NCBI RefSeq assembly: GCF_008806325.1
Contig: NZ_WACR01000006.1
Span: 1-64,000, forward strand
Reading direction: 5' to 3'
Length of the DNA: 64,000 nucleotides
Source: Salibacter halophilus
Lineage (GTDB): Bacteria > Bacteroidota > Bacteroidia > Flavobacteriales_G > Salibacteraceae
Both the position numbers and the translations under genes were made by a program. A model generated the notes under the pieces. It made no database searches. It saw nothing but the letters and a program-made list of their open reading frames with translations, and had not been told where the DNA came from. Positions within the stretch are counted from its first letter, which is position 1; each line of letters begins with the position of its first letter. Below, one piece after another: positions 3,608 through 35,233 of the stretch.

Positions 3608-4561
3608 TTACAGTTCACTTTTTATTCCTCTCACAATATCTTTTTGAAAAGCTGAAAGAATAGCCTGTAATTCGCTAATGTACTTTTCATTATCAGCATT
3701 CATGACATAACCAGCCGATCTCGCCAGTCCAAGCCACTGTGCTGCCCCGTTGTTATCGTTTACTTTACTGAGATTCGTAGCCCAGTCTTTACCACCCCAA
3801 ACGGTTTTCTTGTAATAGACCTTATTAAAAGACCCGTTGGTTGTAATCAACTTGACATCTGCCTTGATTGCAAGTGCGGGTTCGGTCTCGAGCTTTACAT
3901 CTTTATACCCTCTACCACCATCAAAGTTGGCAAAGCTCACCATAAAGTTGATCGACAACAGATTTGTTTCAGACTTTGACGACACCTTCATATCAAAATT
4001 ACCTTCTTTGATAATATTTGTGGTGTAACATACATTCTTGTCTTGCGGCCTAAAGGTCAGATCCCTGATCACGGCAAAAGCTCCGTAGCCGGGTAGCGTT
4101 CCTTCTGTAACATTCTTTTTATCTGCTACCGGCTCTGAATTTCCCGTAGAGCCGATGACTTCATTATCCTTATCTTTAGAAACGCGTTTTTGCACATAAT
4201 CAGATCGCAAAACCCGATCGCCTTTATCAATCGTCAATCCTGCCGACTCGAGTTCTTTAATTAATTCAGAGTAAAGTTGATTGACCATCTGCTGGTAGCT
4301 CTCCTGTGTGAGTCCTTCAATTGAAACCTCAGAAAAAACTCCTTTCGTGGCACTTGTTTCGCTTCCTTTCATCAGCGTTGCCTGTGAAACGGCATAATCT
4401 GAAACGAAGAGTGGATATTTCTTCAACCTCTTGGCTGATCCTCCGCTTATTTTGAATTTACCTTTGTACTCATCAGTAAAATCTACAGAGCTCCAATCGG
4501 CCTGGCTATAAGAAAGACAACTACTAAAAATAAACATCAAGAAAATTCCGGCAAGTCTCAT
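3608..4561 (-). CDS. Exported protein of unknown function
   Basis: The preferred start is the ATG at 4559-4561 (MRLAGIFLMFIFSSC). The open frame extends 8 codons further, but this start puts a signal sequence at the N-terminus. That sequence can be read as a lipoprotein signal (FSSC) or as a type I signal cut after SYSQA. The mature part of ~300 residues is soluble, Lys/Ser-rich and has no repeats. It includes a stretch (GFSEVSIEGL-like to LIKELESAGL) resembling periplasmic proteins that handle paired arguments, but I do not recognise the family. It is divergent from ileS across a 171-bp spacer that contains a perfect inverted repeat. Function unknown. Confidence 0.8.
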   Translation of the reverse strand: MRLAGIFLMFIFSSCLSYSQADWSSVDFTDEYKGKFKISGGSAKRLKKYPLFVSDYAVSQATLMKGSETSATKGVFSEVSIEGLTQESYQQMVNQLYSELIKELESAGLTIDKGDRVLRSDYVQKRVSKDKDNEVIGSTGNSEPVADKKNVTEGTLPGYGAFAVIRDLTFRPQDKNVCYTTNIIKEGNFDMKVSSKSETNLLSINFMVSFANFDGGRGYKDVKLETEPALAIKADVKLITTNGSFNKVYYKKTVWGGKDWATNLSKVNDNNGAAQWLGLARSAGYVMNADNEKYISELQAILSAFQKDIVRGIKSEL

Positions 4562-7700: not shown

Positions 7701-8218
7701 AGCCCGATTTCAAAGCGCTTGGTCCAAAATACGGCAAGCTGATGAAGGGTATTGCGGCTGCTGTCAATCAATTTGAGCAGGAAGATATCAACGAGTTAGA
7801 ACGCAATGGTCAGATCCAAATCCAAGTTCAGGGTGAAAATATCACTCTTACAACTGACGATGTTGAAATTTCGACAGACGACATTCCGGGTTGGCTCGTT
7901 ATGACAGAAAACGGAATTACCGTTGCGCTCGACATTCAGTTGAACGATGAATTGCGCTACGAGGGAATTGCACGTGAATTAGTAAACCGCATTCAAAACC
8001 TGCGTAAAGACAGTGGTTTGGACGTAACAGACCGCATTGTAATAACCGTGGAATCACAAGAATTGTTATCCGCTGCAGTAAATGATAATTTCGATTATAT
8101 TTGCGCGGAAACATTAGCAGATGAGCTAAATTTTGTCGACTCACTTTCAGGCAATAACGTTCATGAAAGCGAGTTAAATGAAGACCTCACCTGTAAATTT
8201 AGAATTGAGAAAACTTAA
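4733..8218 (+). CDS. ileS: Isoleucyl-tRNA synthetase, long (eukaryote-like) type
   Basis: Charges tRNA-Ile with isoleucine in the cytosol. This is a class I synthetase: the HIGH signature reads GIHH at residues 56-59 and KMSKR is at 706-710, with the WTTTPWTLPSN editing-domain entry near residue 240 and the conserved WNLSRSRYWGIPLP segment before the second half of the Rossmann fold. At 1161 residues it is longer than the ~930-residue classical bacterial enzyme. It matches the second, eukaryote-like IleRS type, which is common in Bacteroidota and in other organisms is linked with natural mupirocin resistance. The start is an ATG, 28 bp after a TAnnTTTG element. A DksA-like gene and lspA follow closely and probably form one operon. 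Three decamer copies lie in its first third and N-terminal quarter (4844, 5482, 5518) and one near 7808. Confidence 0.97.
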   Translation: MAKFNEYKQLNLTEVADEINEFWKNNRIFEKSVEERSGSDPFVFYEGPPSANGKPGIHHVMARTIKDLFCRYQTMKGKQVKRKAGWDTHGLPVELGVEKELGITKEDIGDKISIADYNKACREAVMRYTDIWNNLTEKMGYWVDMDDPYITYKTKYIETVWWLLKQFHEKNLLYKGYTIQPYSPKAGTGLSSHELNMPGCYRDVKDTTIIAQFKVADSTFKVPALKAAYEEGNLYLLAWTTTPWTLPSNTALTVGEKIDYVLVRTFNQYTHEPIFIVLAKDLVKNVLGKKFQQVDTLEGVVAFQKGDKKIPFYIAESFKGKDLVGTNYEQLLPYAKPMENPDDAFRVIPGDFVTTEDGTGIVHTAPTFGADDARVAKEAGVPPMLVEDKNGNPGPLVDLQGKFLETVKDDVFGIGGEYVKEEYLTDEEKEEALKKQQTYLKDVIKNIDKYLSVDERISIKLKMEGLAFNVEKYTHSYPHCWRTDKPVLYYPLDSWFIRSTEMKDQMIGLNKTINWKPKATGEGRFGNWLENLNDWNLSRSRYWGIPLPVWTTEEGDEVKVVGSVEELKDEIDKAVEAGVMDNNPLADFKPGNMDESNYDQIDLHRPYVDDLKLVSKSGETMTREKDLIDVWFDSGSMPYAQHHYPFENKEAIDQNQSYPADFIAEGVDQTRGWFFTLHAIGSMIFDSVAYKNVVSNGLVLDKNGQKMSKRLGNAVEPFEAMKKYGTDAIRWYMITNAQPWDNLKFDLEGVNEVKRKFFRALQNTYAFFSLYANVDGFTYSEDKIDIKDRPEIDRWVISKLNSLIKEVDAAYADYEPTKAGRLIQEFVVENLSNWHVRLSRKRFWRGDYGQDKIAAYQTLYECLTAVAKLAAPIAPFYAEQLYRDLNNVTGKEDQESVHLAFMPEVVESEIDTDLEERMSIAQQVSSMILALRKKESIKVRQPLQKIMVPVLNDTFERQLSDVANLIKTETNIKEIEFLNDTKGVLVKQIKPDFKALGPKYGKLMKGIAAAVNQFEQEDINELERNGQIQIQVQGENITLTTDDVEISTDDIPGWLVMTENGITVALDIQLNDELRYEGIARELVNRIQNLRKDSGLDVTDRIVITVESQELLSAAVNDNFDYICAETLADELNFVDSLSGNNVHESELNEDLTCKFRIEKT

Positions 8219-9312: not shown

Positions 9313-9356
9313 GGTCAGAGCCAAAAAAAGCCGGCTCTAAAAAGAACCAGCTTTTC
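9313..9356. terminator. Bidirectional terminator between lspA and glmS, containing a decamer copy
   Basis: The decamer copy GGTCAGAGCC starts 2 bp after the lspA stop. Its AGAGCC half (9317-9322) pairs with GGCTCT at 9333-9338. An overlapping alternative stem pairs AAAGCC-GG with CC-GCTTT further right. Both are A/T-flanked and suit convergent termination of lspA and glmS. Confidence 0.5.
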
Positions 9357-9381: not shown

Positions 9382-11226
9382 TTACTCAACCGTTACTGAT
9401 TTCGCTAAGTTTCGCGGTTGATCTACATTGCAGCCTCTCATCACAGCAATGTGATAGGAGAGTAACTGAAGCGGTATAGTCGTTATCAAAGGCGTAAACG
9501 CCTCATCAGTATCTGGTATTTCAATAACATGATCGGCCATTTCTCTAATGGTTTCATCACCTTCATTCACAACAGCAATGATTTTTCCGTTACGAGCTTT
9601 TATCTCCTGGATATTGCTCACAACTTTTTCATACTGTCCGTTTTTAGTGGCAATAACAACCACAGGCATGTTTTCATCGATCAACGCGATGGGTCCGTGC
9701 TTCATTTCAGCAGCCGGATAACCTTCAGCGTGAATATACGAAATTTCTTTCAATTTCAAAGCACCTTCTAGAGCAACGGGAAAATTATACCCTCTTCCCA
9801 GGTAAAGAAAGTTCGATACGTCCTTGTACATTTCTGCAATGCTTACAGTCATATCTTCACTTTCGAGCATTTGCTCAACTTTCTTGGGAATTTGATCCAG
9901 CTCGCTGATCAGTGATCTGAATCTACTCTCGGTCAGAGCACCTTTTCTGCGCCCGATCTCCAACGCGATCAAAGCCAACACGGCAACCTGAGCGGTAAAT
10001 GCTTTTGTCGATGCTACACCAATCTCAGGTCCGGCATGCGTATAAGCTCCGGCATGTGAAGCGCGAGCAATTGAAGAGCCCACTACATTGCATATTCCAA
10101 AGATTGTAGCTCCTTTTTTCTTCGCCAACTCGATTGCGGCCAACGTATCAGCCGTTTCTCCTGATTGTGAAATCGCGATTACAACATCATCTTCAGTGAT
10201 AATCGGGTTGCGATAGCGAAACTCAGATGCGTACTCAACTTCAACGGGAATGCGAGCAAACTCTTCAAACATGTATTCTGCAACCAAACCTGCATGCCAG
10301 CTAGTACCACAAGCCACAAACAGAATTCTACTCGCGTTTTCAAATTTTGCACCGTATTCTTTTACACCCGACATTGAAATAATTCCTTCATCGGGAAGTA
10401 ATCTACCGCGAAGTGTATCGCGAATTGAGCGGGGTTGTTCAAAAATTTCTTTGAGCATGAAATGATCGTATCCACCTTTTTCGATTTCTTCGAGATGCAT
10501 TTGAAGCTCGTGGATGTAAGGGTCGATCGATTTATTATCTGTGATGCTCTTGATCTCGAGTTTTTTTCCACGCTCTATTACAGCCATTTCCTCATCTTCG
10601 AGGTAAACTGCATTTTTCGTGTATTCTACAAAGGGAGTTGCATCTGAAGCGATGAAAAACTCATCGTCTCCAATTCCAACAACGAGCGGACTACCTTTTT
10701 TAGCGAGTACAATCTTGTCTGTGTTTCCACGCTCAACAATTGCGATAGCATAAGCGCCCACAACCTGATTGAGGGCAACACGAACAGCATCTTCCAGTTT
10801 GAGGTCTTCAGCTTCTCTCACCATTTCGATGAAATTGATCAGAACCTCAGTATCTGTTTCACTTTCAAAACGGTATCCCTGGTTGACCAATTCTTTTTTG
10901 AGGGCATCGTAGTTTTCGATGATCCCGTTGTGAATGATCGCGAGATTTTTGCTTTGAGAGTAATGCGGATGCGAGTTGACATCATTTGGCGGTCCGTGAG
11001 TTGCCCAGCGGGTGTGACCAATGCCCAGCGTACCTTTTAGGTTCTGACCATTAGCTTTATTCTCCAAATCAGCAACTTTGCCTTTGCACTTGATGAGATT
11101 AATATCATCTTCATCTACAATGGCTACTCCGGCACTGTCGTAACCTCTGTATTCAAGTCTTTTTAATCCTTTTATTAAGATTGGGTATGCCTCCTGGCTA
11201 CCCACATAACCAACAATTCCACACAT
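9382..11226 (-). CDS. glmS: Glutamine--fructose-6-phosphate aminotransferase (isomerizing)
   Basis: Makes glucosamine-6-phosphate from fructose-6-phosphate and glutamine, the first step towards UDP-GlcNAc for peptidoglycan and LPS. It has 614 residues, the usual length. The N-terminal MCGIVGYVG places the nucleophile Cys2 for the glutaminase domain (residues 2-~220). Two SIS sugar-isomerase domains follow (around 290-420 and 460-600), with CGTSWHAG and SQSGETADT visible, and the C-terminus ends NLAKSVTVE as in the family. It starts 8 bp after the DUF4270 gene, so it is the last gene of a leftward operon. No glmS riboswitch is expected or seen. Confidence 0.97.
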   Translation of the reverse strand: MCGIVGYVGSQEAYPILIKGLKRLEYRGYDSAGVAIVDEDDINLIKCKGKVADLENKANGQNLKGTLGIGHTRWATHGPPNDVNSHPHYSQSKNLAIIHNGIIENYDALKKELVNQGYRFESETDTEVLINFIEMVREAEDLKLEDAVRVALNQVVGAYAIAIVERGNTDKIVLAKKGSPLVVGIGDDEFFIASDATPFVEYTKNAVYLEDEEMAVIERGKKLEIKSITDNKSIDPYIHELQMHLEEIEKGGYDHFMLKEIFEQPRSIRDTLRGRLLPDEGIISMSGVKEYGAKFENASRILFVACGTSWHAGLVAEYMFEEFARIPVEVEYASEFRYRNPIITEDDVVIAISQSGETADTLAAIELAKKKGATIFGICNVVGSSIARASHAGAYTHAGPEIGVASTKAFTAQVAVLALIALEIGRRKGALTESRFRSLISELDQIPKKVEQMLESEDMTVSIAEMYKDVSNFLYLGRGYNFPVALEGALKLKEISYIHAEGYPAAEMKHGPIALIDENMPVVVIATKNGQYEKVVSNIQEIKARNGKIIAVVNEGDETIREMADHVIEIPDTDEAFTPLITTIPLQLLSYHIAVMRGCNVDQPRNLAKSVTVE

Positions 11227-15873: not shown

Positions 15874-16365
15874 ATGGATAAGTCGGTTGCGGTCAGAACC
15901 GTAGCCGAATGGAAGTCGCAGGGCGAGACAGTCGTGTTCACGAATGGCGTTTTTGACCTCTTGCACAAAGGCCACATCGACTACCTCTCAAAAGCTGCCG
16001 ATTTGGGTACAAAGCTGGTGATGGGACTCAACAGCGATGCATCGGTGAAAACGCTGAATAAAGGTCCGGCCAGGCCCATCAAAGATCAGGATCAGCGTGC
16101 AACCATTCTGGCGGCACTCTTTTTTGTGGATGCTGTCATCATTTTCGATGAAGAAACACCTTTTGATCTCATCAAAAAACTCACACCAAATGTTTTGGTA
16201 AAAGGTGGCGACTACGACCCCCAATGCTCTGACCAAAATGATAAACGCTATATCGTGGGATCTGACCATGTGAAAGAGAATGGCGGAAAAGTGGAGGCAA
16301 TCGCCTTTTTACCGGGCTACTCCACCACATCTTTAGAGCAAAAGATATTGGATTCAAACCAATAG
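15874..16365 (+). CDS. rfaE2: D-glycero-beta-D-manno-heptose 1-phosphate adenylyltransferase (RfaE domain II)
   Basis: Makes ADP-heptose for the LPS core. The preferred start is ATG at 15874, four bases after the upstream stop. An ATG at 15841 is in frame but would overlap the YbhN-like gene. The cytidylyltransferase-like fold is shown by FTNGVFDLLHKGHIDYL (HxGH motif) near the N-terminus, GLNSDASVK in the middle and a C-terminal GYSTTSL. Only the adenylyltransferase domain is present; the kinase domain (HldE N-half) must be encoded elsewhere. One decamer copy lies at its 5' end (15891). Confidence 0.93.
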   Translation: MDKSVAVRTVAEWKSQGETVVFTNGVFDLLHKGHIDYLSKAADLGTKLVMGLNSDASVKTLNKGPARPIKDQDQRATILAALFFVDAVIIFDEETPFDLIKKLTPNVLVKGGDYDPQCSDQNDKRYIVGSDHVKENGGKVEAIAFLPGYSTTSLEQKILDSNQ

Positions 16366-16380: not shown

Positions 16381-17754
16381 ATGGCCAAAACGAAATCCGT
16401 TTTCATCTGTCAAAACTGCGGTGCACAATCGCCAAAATGGGTTGGACGCTGCTCCAGCTGTGGCGAATGGAACTCTTTTGTAGAGGAAGTTATCACGAAA
16501 AAAGACAAAAAACGCGCTTCGGTCAGAACCGAATCGACTAACGACACCATTGCCAAACCGCTGTCTCTGACCGAAATTGAAACGGAAAACCTGCCGCGTA
16601 TTTCAACCAACAACAACGAGCTCGATCGCGTTTTGGGAGGAGGTATCGTCCCGGGTTCGCTCGTGCTTATAGGCGGTGAGCCCGGAATTGGGAAGTCAAC
16701 GTTGATGCTGCAAATAGCCGTTTCGCTACCGGGAAAAAAAGTGCTTTATATTTCAGGTGAAGAGAGTCCGCAGCAAATCAAAATGCGCGCCCAGCGAATG
16801 GGAAAAGAAACTGCCGATACTTTTTTACTGGCCGAAACGTCACTCGACACGATTTTCAAGCACATCAAGAATGTAGCGCCTGACATCCTGATTGTGGATT
16901 CTATTCAAACGCTACACACCTCACTGATAGAAAGTGCTCCGGGAAGCGTGAGCCAGGTGCGCGAGTGTACGGCTGAACTGTTGCGTTTTGCCAAAGAGAG
17001 CAACATTCCCGTTTTTCTCATCGGGCACATCAACAAGGAAGGACACATTGCCGGTCCAAAAATACTGGAGCACATGGTAGATAGTGTCTTGCAGTTTGAA
17101 GGCGATCGCAATCACATTTATCGCTTGCTCAGATCCGTAAAAAACCGCTTTGGATCGACCAACGAGTTGGGGATTTACGAAATGGAAGGAAGCGGCTTGC
17201 GGGAAGTGCGTAATCCGTCAGAGATATTCATCGGTAACCGCGATCAGTCGCTCAGCGGAACAGCTATTGCCGCAACAATGGAAGGCCTGCGCCCTATGAT
17301 GATTGAAACACAGGCTCTGGTGAGTACAGCCGCATACGGTACTCCGCAACGATCTGCTACGGGATTTGACCTCCGCAGACTCTCAATGCTTTTGGCTGTA
17401 CTGGAAAAACGCTGTGGGTTCAAGCTCGCTTCGAAGGATGTGTTTTTAAACATCGCGGGCGGAATAAAAGTGGATGATCCGGCCATTGACTTGGCCCTGG
17501 TTTGTTCCGTGTTATCCTCCAATGCCGACATGCCGATAAGTGCTAATTACTGCTTTGCTGCCGAGGTTGGACTGTCAGGAGAAATAAGACCCGTGACACG
17601 CTGCGATCAACGAATCAGCGAAGCTGAAAAACTCGGCTTTGAAAAGATCTACATCAGCTCGTACAACAAAAAAGGCATCGACCAAAAAGACTACGACATC
17701 AAGATCAAAATGGTGAAGCAAATCGGTGAAGTTTTCGCTGATCTTTTTGGGTAA
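16381..17754 (+). CDS. radA: DNA repair protein RadA
   Basis: A RecA-like, DnaB-type hexameric branch-migration helicase acting in recombination and, in transformable bacteria, in natural transformation. It has 457 residues. A C4 zinc finger is formed by Cys10, Cys13, Cys24 and Cys27, Walker A is GGEPGIGKST near residues 97-106, the RadA-specific KNRFG motif lies in the middle, and a Lon-protease-like C-terminal domain is inferred from length and the GGIKVDDPAIDLA segment. The ATG follows a TACCTTAG box that resembles a -7 element. Two decamer copies lie just upstream and at its 5' end (16258, 16521). Confidence 0.97.
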   Translation: MAKTKSVFICQNCGAQSPKWVGRCSSCGEWNSFVEEVITKKDKKRASVRTESTNDTIAKPLSLTEIETENLPRISTNNNELDRVLGGGIVPGSLVLIGGEPGIGKSTLMLQIAVSLPGKKVLYISGEESPQQIKMRAQRMGKETADTFLLAETSLDTIFKHIKNVAPDILIVDSIQTLHTSLIESAPGSVSQVRECTAELLRFAKESNIPVFLIGHINKEGHIAGPKILEHMVDSVLQFEGDRNHIYRLLRSVKNRFGSTNELGIYEMEGSGLREVRNPSEIFIGNRDQSLSGTAIAATMEGLRPMMIETQALVSTAAYGTPQRSATGFDLRRLSMLLAVLEKRCGFKLASKDVFLNIAGGIKVDDPAIDLALVCSVLSSNADMPISANYCFAAEVGLSGEIRPVTRCDQRISEAEKLGFEKIYISSYNKKGIDQKDYDIKIKMVKQIGEVFADLFG

Positions 17755-19190: not shown

Positions 19191-20039
19191 GTGAATAAAG
19201 GGGTTCAATATATGCTCATATCGGCTTTGTGCTTTAGCCTCATGCAGTTGTGCGTGAAGTTTTTGAGCCACTTGCCTTTTACTGAGCTCGTTTTTTTCAG
19301 ATCCATCGTATCGCTGGTGTTGAGCCTCATCATTTTGAAAAGAGCAGGCGTACATCCGCTCGGCAACAAGCGTAAGTATTTGGTATTGCGCGGAATCTTT
19401 GGCGTGATTGCCCTGTCCAGTTTCTTCTTCACTCTTCAGAACCTGCCCATTGCCACGGCTATCGTGATCCAGTACCTCAGCCCGATGTTCACAGCGTTAT
19501 TTGCCATCTGGATATTAAAAGAACCCATGAAACCTATTCAATGGCTCTTTTTTGCACTTTCTTTTGCGGGCATTATCGTCATCAAAGGATTCAACGATGA
19601 CATCGACCTTATATACATGATTGCCGGGGTGGTATCCGCTGTTTTTGCCGGACTCGCATACAACATGATCGGGAAGGTGAAAGGATCTGACCATCCCGTT
19701 GTGGTGGTGTTTTATTTTCCGCTCATCGCCACGCCCATCATGGGAGTTGTTTCACTTTTTTACTGGGAAACGCCTGTCGGATGGGACTGGCTCATCATCC
19801 TCGCTATGGGTATATTCACGCAACTCGCACAGGTAACCATGACAAAAGCCTGGCAAGCTGAGGAAGCCAATCAAATAGCCCCACTGAAATATGTGGGTAT
19901 CATCTTCGCGCTGTTTTGGGATTACTCGATTTTTGGCATCTCCCACAACTGGTCGATGTTCGTAGGTATCGGACTCGTAATCTCCGGTGTTGTCGCCAAT
20001 TTATTGATGAAAAAACGACTGAACAGGAATACTGCTTAG
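19191..20039 (+). CDS. EamA/DMT superfamily permease
   Basis: A 282-residue membrane protein with about ten hydrophobic helices arranged as two EamA repeats of five. The first ends around residue 130 (WILKEPMKPIQWLFFALSFA) and the second near the C-terminus. Such proteins export amino acids, purines or other metabolites; the substrate cannot be read from sequence. The start is GTG at 19191, the only start that keeps the first helix, with a CCTTTGC box just upstream. A decamer copy lies 7 bp after the stop. Confidence 0.88.
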   Translation: MNKGVQYMLISALCFSLMQLCVKFLSHLPFTELVFFRSIVSLVLSLIILKRAGVHPLGNKRKYLVLRGIFGVIALSSFFFTLQNLPIATAIVIQYLSPMFTALFAIWILKEPMKPIQWLFFALSFAGIIVIKGFNDDIDLIYMIAGVVSAVFAGLAYNMIGKVKGSDHPVVVVFYFPLIATPIMGVVSLFYWETPVGWDWLIILAMGIFTQLAQVTMTKAWQAEEANQIAPLKYVGIIFALFWDYSIFGISHNWSMFVGIGLVISGVVANLLMKKRLNRNTA

Positions 20040-20240
20040 GTTCCTGGTCAGAACCAATTGTGCTTTTCTCTTAACAACAGAGTTTAATTCATAGCTTTGA
20101 AACAACATTTATTGAATGTTGGTCGAAAAACAGCAAAATGGATCGTTTATTAAGGGTTGAATTCAGGGTCAAGGTCGAGACTAAAAAAACAAGCGATCCT
20201 TAATTAAACAATAAACCCAAATCTTAAATCGTAGGCTTCG

Positions 20241-20855: not shown

Positions 20856-20879
20856 TCTCATCAGTCAGTGGTATATAGC
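20856..20879. repeat. Dispersed intergenic repeat, copy 2
   Basis: Same orientation as copy 1 at 20241-20264, with one substitution (GTGGTATA for GTGATATA). Confidence 0.7.
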
Positions 20880-21049
20880 AGGTCTTTGAGATTCAAGGTC
20901 CAGGTTGAGAAAGCTCGTAAAACTATATTATGAATATATTGAATCCATTCTCGTCCAGCTTTTCGAATAAAAATGCGATACTTTATTCAACAATTAAGCT
21001 ATTCTGAAAACTTTTCTAAAGCTTGGAACTTTAGAAAAGTTGAATAATT

Positions 21050-21087
21050 TCAAAAAGAAGGGTTCTGACCATTAAACTGATCAGAAC
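21050..21087 (-). terminator. Terminator-like hairpin built from an inverted decamer pair
   Basis: An exact decamer copy at 21061-21070 faces an imperfect copy GATCAGAACA at 21079-21088. GTTCTGA and TCAGAAC form a 7-bp stem around 12 nt. On the minus strand the stem is followed by CCTTCTTTTTG, so it can end transcription of the S9 peptidase gene whose stop is ~20 bp before. Confidence 0.6.
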
Positions 21088-21105
21088 ACGGGACTATTTA
21101 ACTAT

Positions 21106-23151
21106 TTACTCTCCATCAATCGTATCCTCTAACCACGAGAAAAACTCACGCTGCCACAGCAAACCGTTTTGCGGTTTCAGAATCCAGTGGTTTTCATCAG
21201 GGAAATAGAGGAATTTACTTTTTAAGCCTTTCAACTGTGCGGCCTGGAAAGCTTCCATTCCCTGCGTATATGGAACACGAAAATCTTTTCCGCTGTGGAT
21301 GACCATCATTGGGCTGTCCCAGTTATCGACAAAGTTGTGAGGTGAGTATTTTTCATAACTCTCAGGTGGATTATTTCCCCAATAAGGTCCGCCAATATCA
21401 AAGTTGGCAAAGAAGAGTTCCTCTGTAGAACCGTACCAGCTCTCCAGGTTGAACAATCCGCAGTGTGAGATAAACGTGTTGAAACGATCTTCGTGGTTAC
21501 CGGCAAGGAAATAAACCGAGTAACCTCCGTAACTCGCTCCCACAGCTCCAGTGCGTTCATTGTCGCAATACGGCTCTTCAATCACGGCATCAAATGCAGC
21601 TTTATAATCGTCAATTGCCTGTCCGCCCCAGTTTTTACTGATCTCTTCATTCCATTCCTGCCCGAAAGTTGGCAAACCTCTGCGGTTTGGTGCTACAACA
21701 ATGTACCCTTTAGCCGCCATGAGCTGGAAATTCCAGCGGAAAGAATAAAACTGCGAAACAGCACTCTGTGGTCCGCCCTGGCAATAAAGGAGTGTAGGAT
21801 ATTTTTTCTTTGGATCAAAATCTGGCGGATAAATCACCCAGGTCAGCATTTTTTCACCATCTGTGGTCTCTATAAAACGTTTTTCAATTTTGCTCTCCTT
21901 GATCTTTGAATAGGCTTTGTCATTGACTTTTGTCAATTGTTTTTCCTCACCAGATTCAATGTTATAACTGTACAACTCATTTGCCCGGTTCATGGTGGAC
22001 TTGTGAGCCACTACTCGTGTTGGCCCCACACCAACAATACCTGTAATATTGTGATCTCCTGAAGTTATGGCTTTGCGTGTTTCATCGAGATCTTTCACCT
22101 TTTTATCAATAGCAGCCGACATGCTGTAAAGCTGGTAAGTAGCCTCGTCACCTGCATTGATGATCACCTCATTGTTCCCGTGAAAAGCAAATCCAAAAAG
22201 CTGGCGATCCCAGTTTTGAGTGATGTTTACAGGATTTTCGATATCATCTGTATTAGCAATTTTCAATTCGTTTTGATCAGACTCATAACCATCTCTCTCC
22301 ATGCTCAACCAAGCGAAAAGGGTTCCGTTTTCATTGAATTGCGGATCAGTGTCGTAACCTTTATTTGCTTCGGTTACATTTTCGGTTTTTCCTGATTTCA
22401 CATCATAGAAATAGATGTCAGTGTTTGTGCTCTCAGCATATTCTTTTCCGGTGAGTTTCTTGCAAACGTAAGCCAGCGTTTTCCCATCCGGACTCCAGGT
22501 GAAGTCCTCAGCTCCGTGAAAAGGCTTAACCGGAACATCGTAAGGCTCATCAGGCATAATGTCTTTGATGTTGGAAATAACTCCTTCCCTGTAATCGGCA
22601 ATGTGCAGGTGGCTGTAAGAGCCATCTTCCCAGGTGTCCCAATGACGATACATCAAATCAGTATAAATTTTAGCATTAGCTCGCCCAAGATCAGGGTATT
22701 TAGCAACTAACGGATCTTTTACTTTCACTTCAGTTGTGAAAGCAATTTTATCTCCTGATGGTGAATACTTGAAATGAGAAACAGCTACATCCTGGTTTTC
22801 CATTGTGTGAACATTCATTCCGCTCAAATCAACTTCAAATAGCTTTCCACTATTGATAAAACCGATGCTTTTCCCATTGGGATGGAGCTGAACACCATAT
22901 TCAGATCCTTCCATATCGGTAATTTGATTCACCTGACCTGTGCGGTTGTTGAGCACATACAAGTCAGAACCGCCCGAGTTTTTAGCAACATCGTACTTCG
23001 TGACGCTATAAACAACTAAATCGTATTGTGAGACAAACACCTCACCGCTAACACGACCCAATTCCCATAATTTCTCGGGAGTCATTCGGTTCTGACCGAA
23101 ACTCAAAAGACTAAAAAATACTGCTATACCTGCTATTGCGAATTTTTTCAT
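21106..23151 (-). CDS. S9 family prolyl-oligopeptidase-type peptidase, exported
   Basis: A 681-residue exported serine peptidase. A signal peptide (MKKFAIAGIAVFFSLLSFG, then Q) is followed by a WD40-like beta-propeller (to about residue 420) and a C-terminal alpha/beta-hydrolase domain. The nucleophile Ser lies in GASYGGYS, the Asp in SGKDFRVPYTQG and the His in DENHWI, in the order typical of S9C (acylaminoacyl-peptidase and dipeptidyl-peptidase-like) enzymes. It probably degrades short peptides in the periplasm; exact specificity is unknown. It is divergent from rseP, and an inverted decamer pair forms its terminator. Confidence 0.93.
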   Translation of the reverse strand: MKKFAIAGIAVFFSLLSFGQNRMTPEKLWELGRVSGEVFVSQYDLVVYSVTKYDVAKNSGGSDLYVLNNRTGQVNQITDMEGSEYGVQLHPNGKSIGFINSGKLFEVDLSGMNVHTMENQDVAVSHFKYSPSGDKIAFTTEVKVKDPLVAKYPDLGRANAKIYTDLMYRHWDTWEDGSYSHLHIADYREGVISNIKDIMPDEPYDVPVKPFHGAEDFTWSPDGKTLAYVCKKLTGKEYAESTNTDIYFYDVKSGKTENVTEANKGYDTDPQFNENGTLFAWLSMERDGYESDQNELKIANTDDIENPVNITQNWDRQLFGFAFHGNNEVIINAGDEATYQLYSMSAAIDKKVKDLDETRKAITSGDHNITGIVGVGPTRVVAHKSTMNRANELYSYNIESGEEKQLTKVNDKAYSKIKESKIEKRFIETTDGEKMLTWVIYPPDFDPKKKYPTLLYCQGGPQSAVSQFYSFRWNFQLMAAKGYIVVAPNRRGLPTFGQEWNEEISKNWGGQAIDDYKAAFDAVIEEPYCDNERTGAVGASYGGYSVYFLAGNHEDRFNTFISHCGLFNLESWYGSTEELFFANFDIGGPYWGNNPPESYEKYSPHNFVDNWDSPMMVIHSGKDFRVPYTQGMEAFQAAQLKGLKSKFLYFPDENHWILKPQNGLLWQREFFSWLEDTIDGE

Positions 23152-24616: not shown

Positions 24617-25441
24617 ATGAGAAAATTACTTCTTTCATTGATCTTTTTCACTGCGCTCAACAGCTTTGCGCAAGACGAAACTTACCGTGTGAATGCCGGT
24701 GAGTCTGACAGTAAAACCGCAACTTCCAACGAACTGGGCGACTTATACGTTGTGCCGTTTAAAGATGCGCTTTTCAAATGTCATTTTTCGCAGGAGCTGA
24801 TGAACGTGAACGGACTCAAGTTTGAAGAGCTCAGCGACACGTTGAAATTCGGACTGGTAAAGGCTGTTTCCAAAACGTTTGGTGACAGCGTTTCTTCGAT
24901 TCACTTTCAGAACCCACGCAAAGCGGTGTTGGTGAAAAACAACGAACTTGCTTTTAACTCGATGAAATACGAGTATGTTGGTGTTCCAAAAGTCGAAGAG
25001 GAAAAATCGAAGCTCGATAAATTCAAGTCGAAATTTAAAAAGAAAGAAGAGCCAAAACGCGAGGGAACTTACATCGAAAATGGTCAGTTACGTACGAATC
25101 GATCTAAAGGTGACAAATACATGAATGCTGTTTTTCAGCGTGATGATTTCCTTTTCCTATTGCGTGAAAAACACCAAACGGACTATTTGGTTTCAATCAA
25201 CCAGCTCGACTTCGTTATCCCGATGGATGCGAGTCAGCTCGATATTCAGCACAACCGCTACGATAGAAATTTACAGGCTCATTACTCGGTTTACAAAACG
25301 GACGGAACCTGGCTACACGGTGGAAAGGCCGCTATTAAAATTCCGGCCAGCGACAATTCGGTTCTGACCATTAACGAGACTTACATGCCGGAATTAGCAA
25401 AAGTTATTTATTCGCAATTTCACGCGGCTACTGAACAATAG
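24617..25441 (+). CDS. Exported protein of unknown function
   Basis: A 274-residue protein with a clear signal peptide (MRKLLLSLIFFTALNSFAQ). A strongly charged Lys/Glu stretch around residues 126-155 looks like an exposed linker between two folded parts. I do not recognise the family. It is co-transcribed with rseP by position, so a link to envelope quality control is possible but only inferred. It carries a decamer copy at 25360 near its 3' end. Confidence 0.8.
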   Translation: MRKLLLSLIFFTALNSFAQDETYRVNAGESDSKTATSNELGDLYVVPFKDALFKCHFSQELMNVNGLKFEELSDTLKFGLVKAVSKTFGDSVSSIHFQNPRKAVLVKNNELAFNSMKYEYVGVPKVEEEKSKLDKFKSKFKKKEEPKREGTYIENGQLRTNRSKGDKYMNAVFQRDDFLFLLREKHQTDYLVSINQLDFVIPMDASQLDIQHNRYDRNLQAHYSVYKTDGTWLHGGKAAIKIPASDNSVLTINETYMPELAKVIYSQFHAATEQ

Positions 25442-26761: not shown

Positions 26762-27123
26762 AAAGTATCTGCTTTGTGCTCATCCAGCGAGTTGAATTCG
26801 ATGAATGAAATATCAGTGAGTGCTTCAACCGTGTGAATTACATTCGGGTAAATATTCAACTCAACCGGAGCTTCAACCTCGTGATGAAAAGTTTCTCCTG
26901 TTTTTCGGTCAGATCCATAAACTTTAGCTGACCCACTGGTCAAAATCAGGATTTCAGGGTTTTTCGTGGCTGAATTCCCTTTATGATAATGGCCTCCGCT
27001 CTTCGATCCTTTTTTGCGCTGAGCGACAATAAATCCTTCAGCAGGTCGAGTAGCCAAACCAAATGTTGATCCGTTTTCATTTTGGCCAATTTCACTGAGC
27101 TTTTTCACAACAATCCCATTCAT
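26749..27123 (-). CDS. Cupin-domain protein
   Basis: A small single-domain cupin of ~124 residues. The first cupin motif is marked by SGGHYHKGN (metal-ligand histidines) and the second by PNVIHTVEAL. The preferred start is ATG at 27121-27123; a GTG two codons earlier is also possible. Such proteins include sugar isomerases and epimerases and small sensor proteins. It lies beside a sugar nucleotidyltransferase gene, so a role in nucleotide-sugar chemistry is plausible but unproven. Confidence 0.82.
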   Translation of the reverse strand: MNGIVVKKLSEIGQNENGSTFGLATRPAEGFIVAQRKKGSKSGGHYHKGNSATKNPEILILTSGSAKVYGSDRKTGETFHHEVEAPVELNIYPNVIHTVEALTDISFIEFNSLDEHKADTFYDD

Positions 27124-28210: not shown

Positions 28211-29942
28211 AATAGCCGGTGTTTTTCTCTCGATTTTATTGTTGAGTTCCTGCTCTGTTTTTAACAAAACAACGAAGAAGGATAAAACAACTCAAAATAA
28301 AACGGAGTACACACCCAATGACAAGCTGAACTCAAACTCGTTTAAGTCGGCATACTTTGACGGACTCAAACACAAGTCGCTCGAGAACTGGGATAAGGCA
28401 CTCTCATCATTTGACAGATGCCTTGAAATGGTGCCGGGTCATCCCGCTACTTTGTACCAAAAATCGCTGGTTCTGACCGAAAAAAACGACTACGAAAAAG
28501 CTGTCACTTCCATTCAAAAGGCAATAGCCGTTGAGGATACCAACCGCTGGTACCTCGATCATTACGCTGATCTTCTCAAGCGAACGAACGATTACAAGAA
28601 AGCCGGTGAAACATTCAAAAAACTCACCGAGTTGAATCCCGGTCAGATCCGCTACTATTACGAGCTGGCCAATATGTACCTCTACGAAAATAAGGTTGAT
28701 GAAGCACTCGTTGTGTACGATGAAATTGAGGAAAAAATAGGCTTCAATGCTGATATCATCAAGCAAAAGTACAAGCTGCACTCGAAGCAGGGCAACAACA
28801 AAAAGGCTGAGGAAGAAGTCAAAAAACTGATCGAAAACGATCCCACAAATGCCAACTATCGCGGGATGTTAGCTTCGTTGTACCGCAGCCGGGGAGAATA
28901 CGAAAAAGCGATTGAAACTTTCAAGAAGCTGCGTGATCTCGACCCTGACAACCCGCTCATCGCGCTTTCACTTGCTGATTATTACGAAGAAGCCGGAAAA
29001 GATGCAGAAGCTTTTGAAGAGCGCAAAAAGGCGTTTGCAAATCCTGAACTCGACATCGACAGCAAAGTCAAAATTTTACTGAATTACTACCGCGTTTCAG
29101 ATCCGGGTGATCAATTAGCGCAAAAAAGTCTCGAATTACTCTCAATCCTCGAAGAGTCACACCCTGATGAAGCCAAAACATTTGCCATTTACGGTGACTT
29201 TCTCATCAGGGAAGGAAATGCTGAAAAGGCACGTGAGAAATACATCAAGAGTATCGCCCTGGACAGCAGTCGTTTCCTCGTTTGGAATCAATTGCTCATC
29301 ATTGAAAGTGAGCTCAACGAAACGAAATCTCTCGAGGAACACAGCGCTGCTGCAATGGAGTTGTTTCCTAGTCAGCCCATTTCATTCCTCATGAACGGAC
29401 TCAGCAACCTACAACTCGAAAACTACGACAGAGCAGCTTTTGCATTGGAGCAGGGAAAAAATCTGGTAGTTGACAACCAGTCTCTTCAAACGCAGTTCTA
29501 CAGTAGCCTGGGTGATGCATACTACAATCTCGAAAAATACGAGAAAGCATGGCTCAACTATGAAAATGCGCTCAAGCTCAATCCCAAAAACGATTACGTG
29601 CTCAACAACTACGCGTACTTTTTGAGCTTGCGCAAGGAGAACCTTGACAGAGCAAAAGAGATGGCTTCTCAAACAGTTAAAAGGCATCCTACAAACCCGA
29701 CCTATTTAGATACTTACGCCTGGGTGCTCTACCAAAACGGAGAATACCAAAAAGCAAAAACACACCTTGAAACTGCTCTTGAAAATGGCGGAATGAGCCA
29801 GGGTGAAATATTGGAGCATTACGGTGATGTACTCAACAAATTAGGTCAAAAGGAAGAAGCCCGTAAGTACTGGAAAAAAGCGAAAGATACCGGAGCAGCT
29901 TCAGATCAAATTGACGAAAAACTAACTCAATCTGCACAGTAA
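28188..29942 (+). CDS. Tetratricopeptide-repeat lipoprotein
   Basis: A 584-residue protein with a lipoprotein signal (IAGVFLSILLLSSC). At least nine TPR units follow from residue ~40 to the end, each recognised by the W/A-x-x-Y/F...A...P pattern (for example ALSSFDRCLEMVPGHPATLY, EKAWLNYENALKLNPKNDYV). The start is TTG at 28188, since no ATG precedes the signal peptide. It probably serves as a scaffold in the periplasm or at the outer membrane. The next genes (DUF4292, EnvC-like) are tightly packed and co-directional, so an envelope or cell-wall role is likely. Confidence 0.9.
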   Translation: MEIIQNSKIAGVFLSILLLSSCSVFNKTTKKDKTTQNKTEYTPNDKLNSNSFKSAYFDGLKHKSLENWDKALSSFDRCLEMVPGHPATLYQKSLVLTEKNDYEKAVTSIQKAIAVEDTNRWYLDHYADLLKRTNDYKKAGETFKKLTELNPGQIRYYYELANMYLYENKVDEALVVYDEIEEKIGFNADIIKQKYKLHSKQGNNKKAEEEVKKLIENDPTNANYRGMLASLYRSRGEYEKAIETFKKLRDLDPDNPLIALSLADYYEEAGKDAEAFEERKKAFANPELDIDSKVKILLNYYRVSDPGDQLAQKSLELLSILEESHPDEAKTFAIYGDFLIREGNAEKAREKYIKSIALDSSRFLVWNQLLIIESELNETKSLEEHSAAAMELFPSQPISFLMNGLSNLQLENYDRAAFALEQGKNLVVDNQSLQTQFYSSLGDAYYNLEKYEKAWLNYENALKLNPKNDYVLNNYAYFLSLRKENLDRAKEMASQTVKRHPTNPTYLDTYAWVLYQNGEYQKAKTHLETALENGGMSQGEILEHYGDVLNKLGQKEEARKYWKKAKDTGAASDQIDEKLTQSAQ

Positions 29943-30753: not shown

Positions 30754-31960
30754 AACAGCATTGCTGGCATTTGTTCTTCTACTTAGCTGCTCGGTTGTTT
30801 TTGGTCAGAGCCAAAAGCGCAAAGAGCTGGAAAAGCAAAAGTCTAACCTCGTCAAGGATATTGAGTACAAAAACAAGCTGCTAGAACAAACCAAAAAGCA
30901 AAAGCAAAGTACGCTCAACGATTTGGTTCTGATCAACAAAAAGATCAACGAGCGCCAGCAACTCATCACCACAATCAGAACCGAGATCAACCTCCTCTCT
31001 GACGAAATTGAAGAAAATCAGGCCCTTTTGGAGTCGATGCACAACGACCTCAAAAAGCTCAAAGAAGAATACGCTGAGTTGATCCGTTTTGCAGAGCGCA
31101 ATCAAAACAGCTACGACAAACTCATGTTCGTCTTTGCAGCAAAAGACTTCAACCAGGCGTACAAACGAATCAAATACTTGCGTGAATACACCGAGTATCG
31201 CAAAAGGCAAGCCGCTGCAATCAAAAGACTTGAGAAAAAACTACAGGAAGAAACCGATCAGCTCAAAAAGGATAGAAAGCAAAAAGAACAACTCCTCACT
31301 GATTTGAGTTCTGAAAAGCAAAAACTTGCCGGAGAGCAGGAGGAGCAAGAATCGCTCGCCAACAACCTCAAGCAAAAAGAGCGTGAACTGAAAAAAGAAA
31401 TCGACAAGAAACAGGAAGAACAGCTCGCTATTCAAAAAGCAATACAGCGCGTTATTGCCGAGGAATTACGCAAATCCCGCGAGGCCAATCCTAAATCAAA
31501 AGAGAGCGAATGGTCGCTCACACCAGAAGCTAAAGCACTGGCAGATGACTTTACGAGCAACAAAGGGCAACTTCCCTGGCCAACAGAAAAAGGAGTTATC
31601 ACGCAGAGCTACGGAATCAAAGCTCACCCGGTGCTAAGTCACCTCAAAGTGAAAAATGACGGTGTTGCCATCAGTACTGAAGAAGGATCAACAGCACGAG
31701 CGGTGTTTGATGGTGAAGTGAGTAAAGTGTTGATTATTCCGGGTGCTGGAAAAGTTGTCGTGATCCGTCATGGTGATTACCTCACCGCTTACGGAAAACT
31801 CGATGACGTATTCGTCACAACCGGTGAAAAAGTAACCAGTAAACAAGCTATCGGCACGATTAGAACCAGCCAGGGCAAGACAGAAATGGAATTCCAAATA
31901 CGAAAAGGACAAAAAGCTGAAACCCTTGACCCTGCATATTGGCTTTATAAAGCAAGATAG
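30701..31960 (+). CDS. EnvC/NlpD-like murein hydrolase activator with degenerate M23 domain
   Basis: A 419-residue exported protein. A signal peptide (ends about residue 36, VVFGQ) is followed by a long coiled coil (residues 38-255, very rich in Lys, Glu and Gln) and a C-terminal LytM/M23 domain (about 290-419). The zinc ligands usual for active M23 enzymes are replaced: the HxxGxDxxA block reads KVKNDGVAIS and the final HxH position reads MEFQIRKG. That pattern is typical of EnvC, which activates cell-wall amidases during division instead of cutting peptidoglycan itself. One decamer copy lies at the signal-peptide end (30803). Confidence 0.87.
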   Translation: MRNAFLSKYTTAIRPFAKTALLAFVLLLSCSVVFGQSQKRKELEKQKSNLVKDIEYKNKLLEQTKKQKQSTLNDLVLINKKINERQQLITTIRTEINLLSDEIEENQALLESMHNDLKKLKEEYAELIRFAERNQNSYDKLMFVFAAKDFNQAYKRIKYLREYTEYRKRQAAAIKRLEKKLQEETDQLKKDRKQKEQLLTDLSSEKQKLAGEQEEQESLANNLKQKERELKKEIDKKQEEQLAIQKAIQRVIAEELRKSREANPKSKESEWSLTPEAKALADDFTSNKGQLPWPTEKGVITQSYGIKAHPVLSHLKVKNDGVAISTEEGSTARAVFDGEVSKVLIIPGAGKVVVIRHGDYLTAYGKLDDVFVTTGEKVTSKQAIGTIRTSQGKTEMEFQIRKGQKAETLDPAYWLYKAR

Positions 31961-32247: not shown

Positions 32248-33657
32248 GTGTACACATCTTTTGAACAGGTAAAGCGCGAAATCGAAAACGGCAAAACCGT
32301 TGAAGACATAACGCGCAACTACCTTGAAACCATCAAAGAAAAAGAGTCGCTCAATGCCTTTCTAGAGGTTTTTGATCAGGACGCTATCGAGCAAGCCAAA
32401 AAGGTTGACGAAAAGCTGAAAAACAACACTGCCGGTAAATTGGCAGGAATGGTAATCGGCTTAAAAGACAACATTTGCTACAAAGGTCATGCGGTTAGCG
32501 CTTCCTCAAAAATCCTCGAAAACTTTGAGTCGCTTTACAGCGCAACGGTAGTAGAGAGACTTCTCGAAGAAGACGCAGTGATCATTGGCCGCCTGAATTG
32601 CGATGAATTTGCAATGGGTAGCTCTAATGAGCACTCGGCTTATGGCGCAGTGAAAAACCCTCACGATCAGAACCGTGTGCCCGGTGGATCATCCGGTGGT
32701 TCTGCGGCTGCAGTAGCTGCGGGATTATGTCTCGCAACACTGGGATCTGACACAGGTGGATCTATTCGTCAACCCGCTTCATTTTGTGGAGTTGTTGGCC
32801 TCAAACCCACTTATGGCCGAGTTTCGCGTTGGGGCCTCATCGCTTACGGATCATCGCTCGATCAAATTGGTCCGCTCACGAACACGGTTGAAGATTCAGC
32901 ACTTATCCTGGAGGTTATTGCCGGATCTGACCAAAAAGACAGCACTGCCTCAACGAAAAAGACGGATGCTTATTCAACAGCTTCAAAGTTTGAAGGCAAA
33001 GTAAAAATTGCGGTCATCAAAGAAACTTTTGAGACTGACGGACTCGATCCTGAAATAAAAAAGAATCTCGAAGAAAGAATAGAGTCGCTTAAAGAACAAG
33101 GCCACACGGTTGATTATGTGAGCCTTGATATTTTAGATAAACTCGTTCCAACTTATTACGTGCTTTCAAATGCTGAGGCATCGAGTAACCTGTCGCGCTA
33201 TGACGGAATGCGTTACGGTTACCGAAGCGAACGGGCAGAGGATCTCGAATCAACTTATGTGAAATCGAGAACTGAAGGCTTTGGCACTGAAGTAAAACGC
33301 AGAATTATGCTGGGTACTTTTGTTTTGAGTGCCGGCTATTACGATGCTTATTACTCTAAAGCACAAAAAGTTAGAAGAATTATTCGCGAAAAAACTGATG
33401 AAATGCTCAGGGATTATGATTTCATCCTGTCTCCAACAACTCCAAAGACAGCTTTTGAGTTTGGAGCCAATGATAATGATCCCGTTTCGATGTATCTGGA
33501 AGATATTTTCACGGTCCACTCCAACTTGGCCGGGACACCAGCAATATCGATTCCGGCTGGATTTCACAGCAACGGAATGCCTTATGGACTGCAAATCATG
33601 GCCGGTTCATTCGAAGAAAAGAAGTTGCTCGGCTTTGCTCGCACACTAACTGAGTAA
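32248..33657 (+). CDS. gatA: Glutamyl-tRNA(Gln)/aspartyl-tRNA(Asn) amidotransferase subunit A
   Basis: Amidase subunit of GatCAB, which makes Gln-tRNA or Asn-tRNA from mischarged precursors. It has 469 residues. The amidase-signature triad is Lys73, cis-Ser148 and Ser172, matching the spacing of known GatA proteins. The GGSSGGSAAAVAAG and GSDTGGSIRQPA blocks are intact. The start is GTG at 32248. gatB and gatC are not adjacent. A clear terminator lies 34 bp downstream. Confidence 0.96.
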   Translation: MYTSFEQVKREIENGKTVEDITRNYLETIKEKESLNAFLEVFDQDAIEQAKKVDEKLKNNTAGKLAGMVIGLKDNICYKGHAVSASSKILENFESLYSATVVERLLEEDAVIIGRLNCDEFAMGSSNEHSAYGAVKNPHDQNRVPGGSSGGSAAAVAAGLCLATLGSDTGGSIRQPASFCGVVGLKPTYGRVSRWGLIAYGSSLDQIGPLTNTVEDSALILEVIAGSDQKDSTASTKKTDAYSTASKFEGKVKIAVIKETFETDGLDPEIKKNLEERIESLKEQGHTVDYVSLDILDKLVPTYYVLSNAEASSNLSRYDGMRYGYRSERAEDLESTYVKSRTEGFGTEVKRRIMLGTFVLSAGYYDAYYSKAQKVRRIIREKTDEMLRDYDFILSPTTPKTAFEFGANDNDPVSMYLEDIFTVHSNLAGTPAISIPAGFHSNGMPYGLQIMAGSFEEKKLLGFARTLTE

Positions 33658-33751: not shown

Positions 33752-35233
33752 ATGAAGTGGATTTCATTAACAGGTATTTTATTTTTCTCTTTAAGCGCAC
33801 TGGCAACAAAGCCAGATAGCTCACAATCAGAACCGATCGACACAAACGTGGTTGAGGAAACCTCATCAGTAGTAGCTGCAATGGACAGCATGATGCATGC
33901 TCCGTTCTTTGAACTGGCCGAATCGGCAAAGCTCACATTCGATACAGGGTATGTGGAAATACCTAAAAACGAAATTCCAACTTACAGCGATTCCATTGTG
34001 AAGAACCGCCTGGATTCTCTCAATCTGCGCACTCCTTTCAATGTAGTTCACAACGATCGCGTTGAAGCTTTTATTAATCTCTATGCAGTTAAGAGAAGAG
34101 AGCAGGTTTCCCGAATGCTAGGCTTGAGTGAATACTACTTCCCGATGTTTGAAGAAGTCCTCGATCAGCACGATGTTCCGTTAGAATTGAAATATTTGGC
34201 AGTTGTGGAAAGTGCTCTAAATCCAAGGGCTCGCTCTCATGCAGGCGCTGTTGGAATGTGGCAGTTCATGTATTCTACAGGTAAAATGTATGATCTTGAA
34301 CAAAACTCTTACATGGATGAACGCATGGATCCGGTTAAATCGACTCATGCTGCCGCTCAATACCTCAAGTATTTGTACAGAATGTACGGAAAATGGGATT
34401 TGGCTTTGGCAGCATACAACTGCGGCCCCGGAAATGTGAACCGCGCAATGAGGAGATCTGGCTCAAGAGAAGGAAATTACTGGGATCTCTACCCGTTTCT
34501 ACCACGTGAAACAAGAGGTTACGTGCCGGCTTTCATCGCTGCGTATTACGTTTTTGAACATGCTGATGAATACAAGATTAACCGTGTTGCACCTCTAAAA
34601 ACTTTCTTCGAGACAGATACTGTTCACGTCAAAGGGCCTATTTTCTACTCGGAATTGAGCTCAAAACTGGATCTGACCGAAAGAGAATTGAGTTTCTTAA
34701 ACCCGGCTTACAAACGCGACCTCGTACCGGCTTACAGCGATAAAACAAATATTTTGAGACTCCCTCGCGAAAAGGTTTTTGAGTTTTACGAACAACAGGA
34801 TACGCTCGTAGCATCGACTTACGAAACGATGGGAGAAGAAAATGACGGCAACCTCAAAGAGTTTGAAGAAGATCGCGTTTACTATCGCGTTAGAAGCGGA
34901 GATGTACTAGGACGCATCGCTCAGCGTTATGGTGTTAGATCCAGTGAAATTATGCGTTGGAATAACCTTAGGTCATCTCGTATTAACATCGGTCAGCGAC
35001 TCGTAATTTACCCAAAAGGCGGTAATCATTACGCTCAAAAAAGTGAGCCAAAAAAGATTGAAGTTGAGAAAGATGGAGATAAGGTTTACTACCAAATACA
35101 GAGCGGTGATACGCTGTGGGACATCGCAAAAGCCCGTGGAATAAGCGTTTCTCAGCTAAAAGAACTGAATAAAAACGTCAACTATTCCCGACTAAAACCG
35201 GGAATGAAAATAGTGGTTGGTACAAATGGTTAA
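33752..35233 (+). CDS. Membrane-bound lytic transglycosylase with two LysM domains (MltD-like)
   Basis: A 493-residue exported protein (signal peptide at the N-terminus) that cleaves peptidoglycan glycan strands by transglycosylation. The SLT domain spans about residues 130-270, with catalytic Glu153 in LAVVESALNP and the motifs AGAVGMWQFM and AAYNCGPGNV. Two LysM peptidoglycan-binding domains end the protein (YYRVRSGDVLGRIAQRYGV, then YYQIQSGDTLWDIAKARGI). It shares an 8-bp overlap with the DUF4837 gene. The gene order is fairly common in Bacteroidota. Confidence 0.93.
   Translation: MKWISLTGILFFSLSALATKPDSSQSEPIDTNVVEETSSVVAAMDSMMHAPFFELAESAKLTFDTGYVEIPKNEIPTYSDSIVKNRLDSLNLRTPFNVVHNDRVEAFINLYAVKRREQVSRMLGLSEYYFPMFEEVLDQHDVPLELKYLAVVESALNPRARSHAGAVGMWQFMYSTGKMYDLEQNSYMDERMDPVKSTHAAAQYLKYLYRMYGKWDLALAAYNCGPGNVNRAMRRSGSREGNYWDLYPFLPRETRGYVPAFIAAYYVFEHADEYKINRVAPLKTFFETDTVHVKGPIFYSELSSKLDLTERELSFLNPAYKRDLVPAYSDKTNILRLPREKVFEFYEQQDTLVASTYETMGEENDGNLKEFEEDRVYYRVRSGDVLGRIAQRYGVRSSEIMRWNNLRSSRINIGQRLVIYPKGGNHYAQKSEPKKIEVEKDGDKVYYQIQSGDTLWDIAKARGISVSQLKELNKNVNYSRLKPGMKIVVGTNG

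Follow-up and report, generated by a model that had tools for sequence, protein, structure and literature searches.

Behind the stop codon of a gene for an S9-family peptidase in Salibacter halophilus, an exact copy of the decamer GGTTCTGACC faces an imperfect inverted copy of itself. This arrangement raises the question whether the pair serves as a transcription terminator of the peptidase gene or is one occurrence of a sequence dispersed over the genome for another reason. The window, i.e., the whole stretch of DNA analysed here, comprises 64,000 nucleotides of the 3.12-Mb genome of this species (G000), which was compared with the two sister species of the genus (G001 and G002). Base-level analyses cover 864 kb of G000, 914 kb of G002 and 122 kb of G001. 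The following features surround the pair:

21106..23151, minus strand: gene for an S9-family dipeptidyl-peptidase (Dpp5-like, by homology), whose stop precedes the hairpin
21079..21088, minus strand: imperfect inverted copy with 2 mismatches, GATCAGAACA on the plus and TGTTCTGATC on the minus strand (sequence)
21062..21087, minus strand: hairpin in the 3' UTR of the S9 mRNA with a 10-bp stem, a 6-nt loop and -13.7 kcal/mol, a weak intrinsic terminator candidate (folding and terminator prediction)
21061..21070, plus strand: exact copy of the motif, GGTTCTGACC, which forms the left arm of the hairpin (sequence)
21052..21061, minus strand: T-rich tail CCTTCTTTTT directly 3' of the stem (sequence and fold)
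21009..21042, minus strand: second, stronger AT-rich palindromic hairpin AACTTTTCTAAAG..CTTTAGAAAAGTT with about -16 to -17 kcal/mol, an alternative or second terminator (fold)

On the plus strand, the order at 21061-21088 is GGTTCTGACC ATTAAACT GATCAGAACA, with a spacing of 8 bp between the two copies. Since the S9 gene is encoded on the minus strand with its stop at 21106, the inverted pair starts 17 nt past the stop, and the exact motif copy is located 36-45 nt past it. The mRNA is predicted to fold as GUUCUGAUCA-GUUUAA-UGGUCAGAAC, followed by CCTTCTTTTT. A preliminary description of this DNA had placed the pair just past the peptidase stop and a T-rich run after the stem on that strand, both of which were confirmed. 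It had also given the stem a length of 7 bp; the pair is real and folds, but the stem consists of 10 pairs, one of them a G-U pair. At the level of sequence, the hairpin thus has the properties of an intrinsic terminator: a stem-loop, an immediate U-run and a position shortly behind the stop. The nearest model for the S9 gene product is the dipeptidyl-peptidase Dpp5, with a score below the cut-off of that model. Relatives with about 50% identity are found across Bacteroidota, the gene already contains a motif copy at 23088, and a homology search detected no counterpart in either sister species at E ≤ 1e-50. The S9 gene may have been acquired.

The AT-rich palindrome at 21009-21042 forms 13 or more pairs and is located 20 nt beyond the motif hairpin. 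A near-identical copy (92%) of 21009-21047 is present at G000:C2 86526-86563, likewise between convergent genes, and the palindrome is perhaps a member of a small family of palindromic intergenic repeats. The entire interval 20040-21105, which separates two convergent genes and has no called gene over approximately 1 kb, is built of dispersed repeats. Parts of it match G000:C1 445106-445394 (85-86%) and C1 215143-215450 (71-76%), and one 85-bp piece is present twice within it. At the start of the contig (1-3607) there is no convincing gene, and a perfect 30-bp palindrome is located at 2535-2564. An Rfam search of the window revealed no family at its threshold. A T9SS sorting domain and the nearest homologues are indicative of Bacteroidota.

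A second site, between lspA and glmS, had been described as a partial case in which a motif copy forms half of a stem. Two features are relevant there:

9327..9354, minus strand: predicted terminator stem of glmS, separate from the motif copy at 9313 (terminator predictor and fold)
9313..9322, minus strand: motif copy GGCTCTGACC immediately past lspA and not part of the glmS terminator (motif scan)

The glmS hairpin is formed by different arms (9327-9354), with the motif copy located beyond its T-run, so this part of the description had to be abandoned. A simpler consensus scan listed no terminator in the lspA-glmS stretch.

In the window as a whole, 17 exact decamers were found, compared to 0.09 expected, and 49 copies with at most one mismatch, compared to 2.5 expected. 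Besides the sites given above, the motif scan located the following copies:

3579..3588, plus strand: motif copy GGTTCTGACC
4055..4064, minus strand: motif copy GGATCTGACC
4844..4853, plus strand: motif copy GGTTCTGACC
5482..5491, plus strand: motif copy GGCTCTGACC, forming an inverted pair with the copy at 5518, within a gene
5518..5527, minus strand: motif copy GGTTCTGACC
7808..7817, minus strand: motif copy GGATCTGACC
11040..11049, plus strand: motif copy GGTTCTGACC
15891..15900, minus strand: motif copy GGTTCTGACC
16258..16267, plus strand: motif copy GGATCTGACC
16521..16530, minus strand: motif copy GGTTCTGACC
19683..19692, plus strand: motif copy GGATCTGACC
20046..20055, minus strand: motif copy GGTTCTGACC, past the stop codon of the gene that ends at 20039
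23088..23097, plus strand: motif copy GGTTCTGACC, within the S9 gene
25360..25369, plus strand: motif copy GGTTCTGACC
26907..26916, minus strand: motif copy GGATCTGACC
28469..28478, plus strand: motif copy GGTTCTGACC
28641..28650, minus strand: motif copy GGATCTGACC
30803..30812, minus strand: motif copy GGCTCTGACC
32923..32932, plus strand: motif copy GGATCTGACC
34669..34678, plus strand: motif copy GGATCTGACC
39862..39871, minus strand: motif copy GGTTCTGACC
40160..40169, plus strand: motif copy GGATCTGACC
42833..42842, minus strand: motif copy GGATCTGACC
44525..44534, plus strand: motif copy GGTTCTGACC
47211..47220, minus strand: motif copy GGTTCTGACC
47379..47388, plus strand: motif copy GGATCTGACC
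48965..48974, minus strand: motif copy GGTTCTGACC
50101..50110, plus strand: motif copy GGTTCTGACC
51529..51538, plus strand: motif copy GGTTCTGACC
60180..60189, plus strand: motif copy GGCTCTGACC
60420..60429, plus strand: motif copy GGCTCTGACC
61134..61143, minus strand: motif copy GGATCTGACC
62479..62488, minus strand: motif copy GGATCTGACC
63910..63919, plus strand: motif copy GGCTCTGACC

The complete 3.12-Mb genome contains 457 copies of GGTTCTGACC and a single copy of the reversed-sequence control. For GGHTCTGACCRWNA, 871, 429, and 689 copies were counted in the three species of the genus against 0-1 for the controls, the 871 copies and a control count of 1 belonging to S. halophilus. 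The consensus derived from the copies is GGHTCTGACCRWWA with G excluded at position 3 and has a length of 10-14 bases; one written-out form is GGTTCTGACCGAAA. In the 864 kb of G000, position 3 of the decamer was occupied by A in 150, C in 135, T in 134, and G in 9 copies. The spectrum of single substitutions in the same sequence showed that only this position is free; positions 6, 9, and 10 are partially tolerant, and nearly all other substitutions occurred at about background frequency. On its 3' side the decamer is followed by R (95%), W (87%), a weakly W-rich position and A (71%), and then by A-rich sequence. At the observed density of 0.485 per kb, the form GGHTCTGACC should be present about 1,500 times genome-wide. 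Uptake sequences are characterized by copy numbers in the hundreds to thousands, well beyond chance, and by an invariant core with a weaker AT-rich flank. The motif shares both properties, the second of which is evident from the substitution spectrum and the position table.

The distribution of the motif is restricted to the genus. The sister species have 389 and 649 copies of GGTTCTGACC, and in 32 genomes from 13 further genera of the family 0-15 copies were counted, similar to the control. The degenerate form was found 0-48 times in 42 further, mostly Bacteroidota, genomes. The sister species use a dialect, GGYTCTGACCAAAAA (GGY..AAAAA), in which the flank reads AAAAA instead of RWWA and in which position 3 is occupied by T in 212, C in 50, and A in 7 copies in G002. 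Occurrence in three of three species of the genus and in none of 13 other genera, together with dialects, is again a pattern known from uptake sequences. G000 and G002 have diverged to a median identity of 57% in protein and 60% in nucleotide sequence (185 orthologues). In aligned genes, 10 of 35 G002 motif sites coincided with G000 sites; 1.8% of ordinary 10-mers were unchanged. Samples of 80 kb from five other genomes of the family contained no comparable over-represented motif. The only outlier among these five, in G014, was a set of overlapping GGTGGCGGT words that look like a repeat.

Within genes of G000, the motif overrides codon and amino-acid choice. Tetrapeptides of the type GSD[LPHQR] were encoded as the motif in 89 of 101 cases, compared to 4.5 expected from codon usage, and for x[DAV]LT the corresponding numbers were 125 of 265 and 0.9. 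Motif sites occur at poorly conserved protein positions (4.4 identical bases of 10 vs. an average of 5.8). In G000, 92% of the copies are located within genes, most of them without a partner, and non-coding DNA is not enriched in copies (34 of 419, or 8.1%, vs. 9.7%). In G002, 40% of the copies are non-coding, although non-coding DNA represents 11.7% of the sequence. The placement thus differs between G000 (8% non-coding) and G002 (40% non-coding, post-stop) despite a nearly equal motif. Antisense copies in G000 lean to the 5' ends of genes and sense copies to the 3' ends (p = 2e-5), and in genes with one copy of each sense 43 of 56 pairs point outward (p = 7e-5); the 5'/3' lean was not significant in G002. 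With respect to replication, no strand bias was observed: both strands carry equal numbers of copies per contig and per 92-kb block, and there is no link to GC skew. Uptake sequences, too, have no orientation bias along the chromosome. In summary, the motif is a genus-specific, drive-like, oriented sequence.

The preliminary description had further proposed that inverted pairs of the decamer double as terminators, as in Haemophilus and Neisseria, and that an excess of such pairs should be found behind stop codons. In the 864 kb of G000, 317 gene ends have at least 40 free bases. A terminator was predicted at 91 of them (29%), compared to 5% of in-gene control sites, and only one of the 91, the S9 hairpin, overlaps the motif, with 1.6 expected if the two were independent. 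Exact inverted pairs with a gap of at most 40 bp numbered 8, against 5.1 expected by density, and six of them are located within genes and two in non-coding DNA, one of these two behind a stop. Inverted neighbours with two mismatches were found within 40 bp of exact copies 25 times, with about 26 expected by chance. Copies within 60 bp past stops were not enriched in G000 (14 vs. 9.7 expected, p = 0.19). The many inverted pairs concentrated behind stops that mark terminators of the USS and DUS type were thus not found in this genome, and the proposed dual use is unsupported there. In G002, 47 copies lie within 60 bp past stops, compared to 7.0 expected, and 2 of 104 predicted terminators contain the motif. 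One clean example in G002 is GGTTCTGACC..GGTCAGAACC followed by TTTTT. Post-stop copies were more often partnered than coding copies in both species. With at most 2 mismatches in the inverted partner, this applied to 6 of 18 copies within 100 bp past a stop and to 43 of 385 coding copies in G000 (p = 0.014); with at most 1 mismatch, to 9 of 63 post-stop and 1 of 158 coding copies in G002 (p = 6e-5). The presumed excess of inverted pairs behind stops is therefore mostly contradicted by G000 and mildly favoured by G002.

The relationship between adjacent copies revealed a further property of the motif. Neighbouring copies lie on opposite strands in 67% of the cases in G000 (p = 2e-12) and in 68% in G002 (p = 4e-8), whereas 60 random control 8-mers had opposite-strand neighbours in 46% of the cases on average and in 53% at maximum. 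When copy positions were kept fixed and strands were shuffled, 87 ± 6 same-strand pairs within 1 kb were obtained for G000 and 21.5 ± 3.4 for G002, compared to 35 and 4 observed. Direct pairs in G000 amounted to 0.10 of expectation below 200 bp and reached about 0.95 by 2-3 kb, whereas inverted pairs were near or above expectation at all distances. Exclusion thus acts between copies on the same strand over about 2 kb, not between opposite strands, and it is seen in two species that are 57% identical in protein. A single copy on each strand within about 2 kb thus seems to suffice, which would be expected if the motif sets a direction for import or for the imported strand. Orientation-free uptake would make opposite copies exclude each other, too, which they do not. 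Uptake by H. influenzae is reported to be independent of the orientation of the motif (PMC1939737), so that the known systems give no reason to expect strand exclusion. The exclusion is the new and testable part of these findings.

Taken together, the genome-wide and genus-wide statistics strongly support the preliminary reading of the decamer as an uptake sequence. We consider it probable that GGHTCTGACCRWWA, with the decamer as its core, is an uptake-signal-type sequence belonging to a single genus of Bacteroidota. It is apparently the first sequence of this type seen in Bacteroidota: a search of the open-licence literature revealed none from this phylum, and among the titles and abstracts listed there for the decamer none interprets it in this way. 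A receptor on the surface or in the periplasm would bind the motif in one orientation during natural transformation. Neisseria has a dedicated uptake-sequence receptor, ComP. Binding would favour import of the DNA via ComEC, followed by DprA/RecA, and new copies would become fixed because motif-bearing fragments would enter the cell and recombine more frequently; another copy close by on the same strand would bring little further benefit. More tentative is the proposal that the motif might be a strand-directional signal for DNA import (or recombination), with each copy serving one strand for about 2 kb, opposite copies forming pairs and many genes carrying one of each pointing outward; we regard this as possible rather than probable. 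The S9 hairpin would be one such copy, which landed behind the stop and happens to pair with a neighbouring sequence that matches it in part and adjoins a T-rich run, and it may act as a weak terminator together with the following AT-rich hairpin.

Homologues of ComEC and DprA are present in S. halophilus and in nearly all relatives lacking the motif, and they therefore permit competence but do not prove it. A GspE/PilB-like (pilus/T2SS-type) ATPase with a pilin-like protein encoded upstream (G000:C13 6609-7718, L143) is also found in several other genera of the family. Several points weigh against an uptake function, among them the orientation-independent uptake of H. influenzae mentioned above. 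Within the genus, the ATPase and the pilin were detected in this species only, the assemblies of the two sisters being incomplete, and ComEC was not found in the 83% complete assembly of G001. Moreover, known uptake sequences favour intergenic DNA, which is true for G002 but not for G000.

Among known systems, the USS of Haemophilus and other Pasteurellaceae (AAGTGCGGT plus AT-rich flanks) shares with the motif hundreds to more than 1,000 copies, a rigid core with an AT-rich flank, equal numbers on both strands and many genic copies. The lean of sense copies to 3' ends and of antisense copies to 5' ends in G000 matches that reported by van Passel for most Pasteurellaceae (PMC2346458). Oppositely oriented USS pairs can act as terminators, and H. 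influenzae 86-028NP has 109 overlapping inverted USS pairs (PMC7811141), whereas motif terminators are nearly absent from G000. Sequence and phylum also differ, and for the strong same-strand exclusion we found no published parallel for USS or DUS in the limited literature searched. The DUS of Neisseria (ATGCCGTCTGAA) and its dialects likewise combine high copy number with one-base differences between related species (PMC3630211). The DUS sequence is unrelated, and G000, with genic copies and no non-coding excess, is less similar to Neisseria than G002, in which 40% of the copies are non-coding and crowded behind stops. Within Bacteroidota, natural transformation of Riemerella anatipestifer involves ComEC and DprA, of which G000 also has homologues, as well as ComF and outer-membrane and helix-hairpin-helix proteins, and includes proteins that differ from the classical machinery; the term 'uptake sequence' is absent from that paper (PMC8459023).

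Could transcription termination via inverted-pair hairpins behind genes be the main role of the motif instead? The folding of the S9 pair next to a T-rich run, the clean G002 example and the partner rates of post-stop copies in both species would fit, but most copies are genic and unpaired, and the motif is contained in only 1 of 91 predicted terminators in G000, no more than expected by chance, and in 2 of 104 in G002. Furthermore, the A-rich flank is located 3' of the motif, so that neither arrangement of a pair would supply its own U-run from the consensus. We therefore consider this role highly improbable; neither the motif nor its distribution is accounted for by termination. Termination as a genuine but subordinate function of some post-stop copies, the S9 hairpin among them, is a use known from Haemophilus and Neisseria; it is compatible with DNA uptake and has a chance only slightly short of even. 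The different partner rates of post-stop and coding copies argue for it, and because G002 copies crowd behind stops, terminator use may be a minor sideline; on the other hand, the single predicted G000 terminator with a motif is not above chance and ranks 69th of 91. The S9 hairpin is real but isolated, a one-off weak terminator candidate rather than an example of a general use of the motif.

Other explanations concern the handling of DNA inside the cell. A recombination hotspot or chromosome-handling signal of the Chi or KOPS type, read one way by an intracellular enzyme, would account for the directional behaviour and for an exclusion that spares the opposite strand, and Chi and KOPS octamers are likewise short, oriented, genome-wide and lineage-specific. 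However, the motif has no polarity with respect to replication within contigs, it has an AT-rich flank and, with 14 bp in its extended form, is longer than known Chi sequences, and it is restricted to one genus with species dialects, which makes this explanation unlikely. A connection to a restriction-modification or other DNA-modification system of the genus would be consistent with a non-palindromic, genus-restricted motif with one degenerate position. The motif with its flanks is unusually long for such a site, and sites of modification do not usually reach numbers hundreds-fold above chance at the expense of the encoded proteins, so that we give this possibility very little weight. Finally, same-strand exclusion might merely reflect the loss of direct repeats via slippage or recombination, since direct pairs are the missing class. 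It extends over 2-3 kb, though, for a repeat of 10-14 bp, and it is no stronger between identical than between different variants: the direct pairs in G000 comprise 14 with the same and 21 with different letters. The fact that pairs of identical variants are not depleted further is evidence against deletion between the copies, and such a loss hardly comes into consideration.

Uptake of DNA by means of a sequence tag is known from two proteobacterial families. If true, a third and independent occurrence, in Bacteroidota, would show that this trait evolves repeatedly, and it would provide a handle on competence in a phylum with poorly known machinery, as well as a drive model that can be tested. 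The directional logic, if true, is undescribed for USS or DUS, and same-strand exclusion offers a quantitative clue to directional import, for which the genomes of Haemophilus and Neisseria provide an immediate check.
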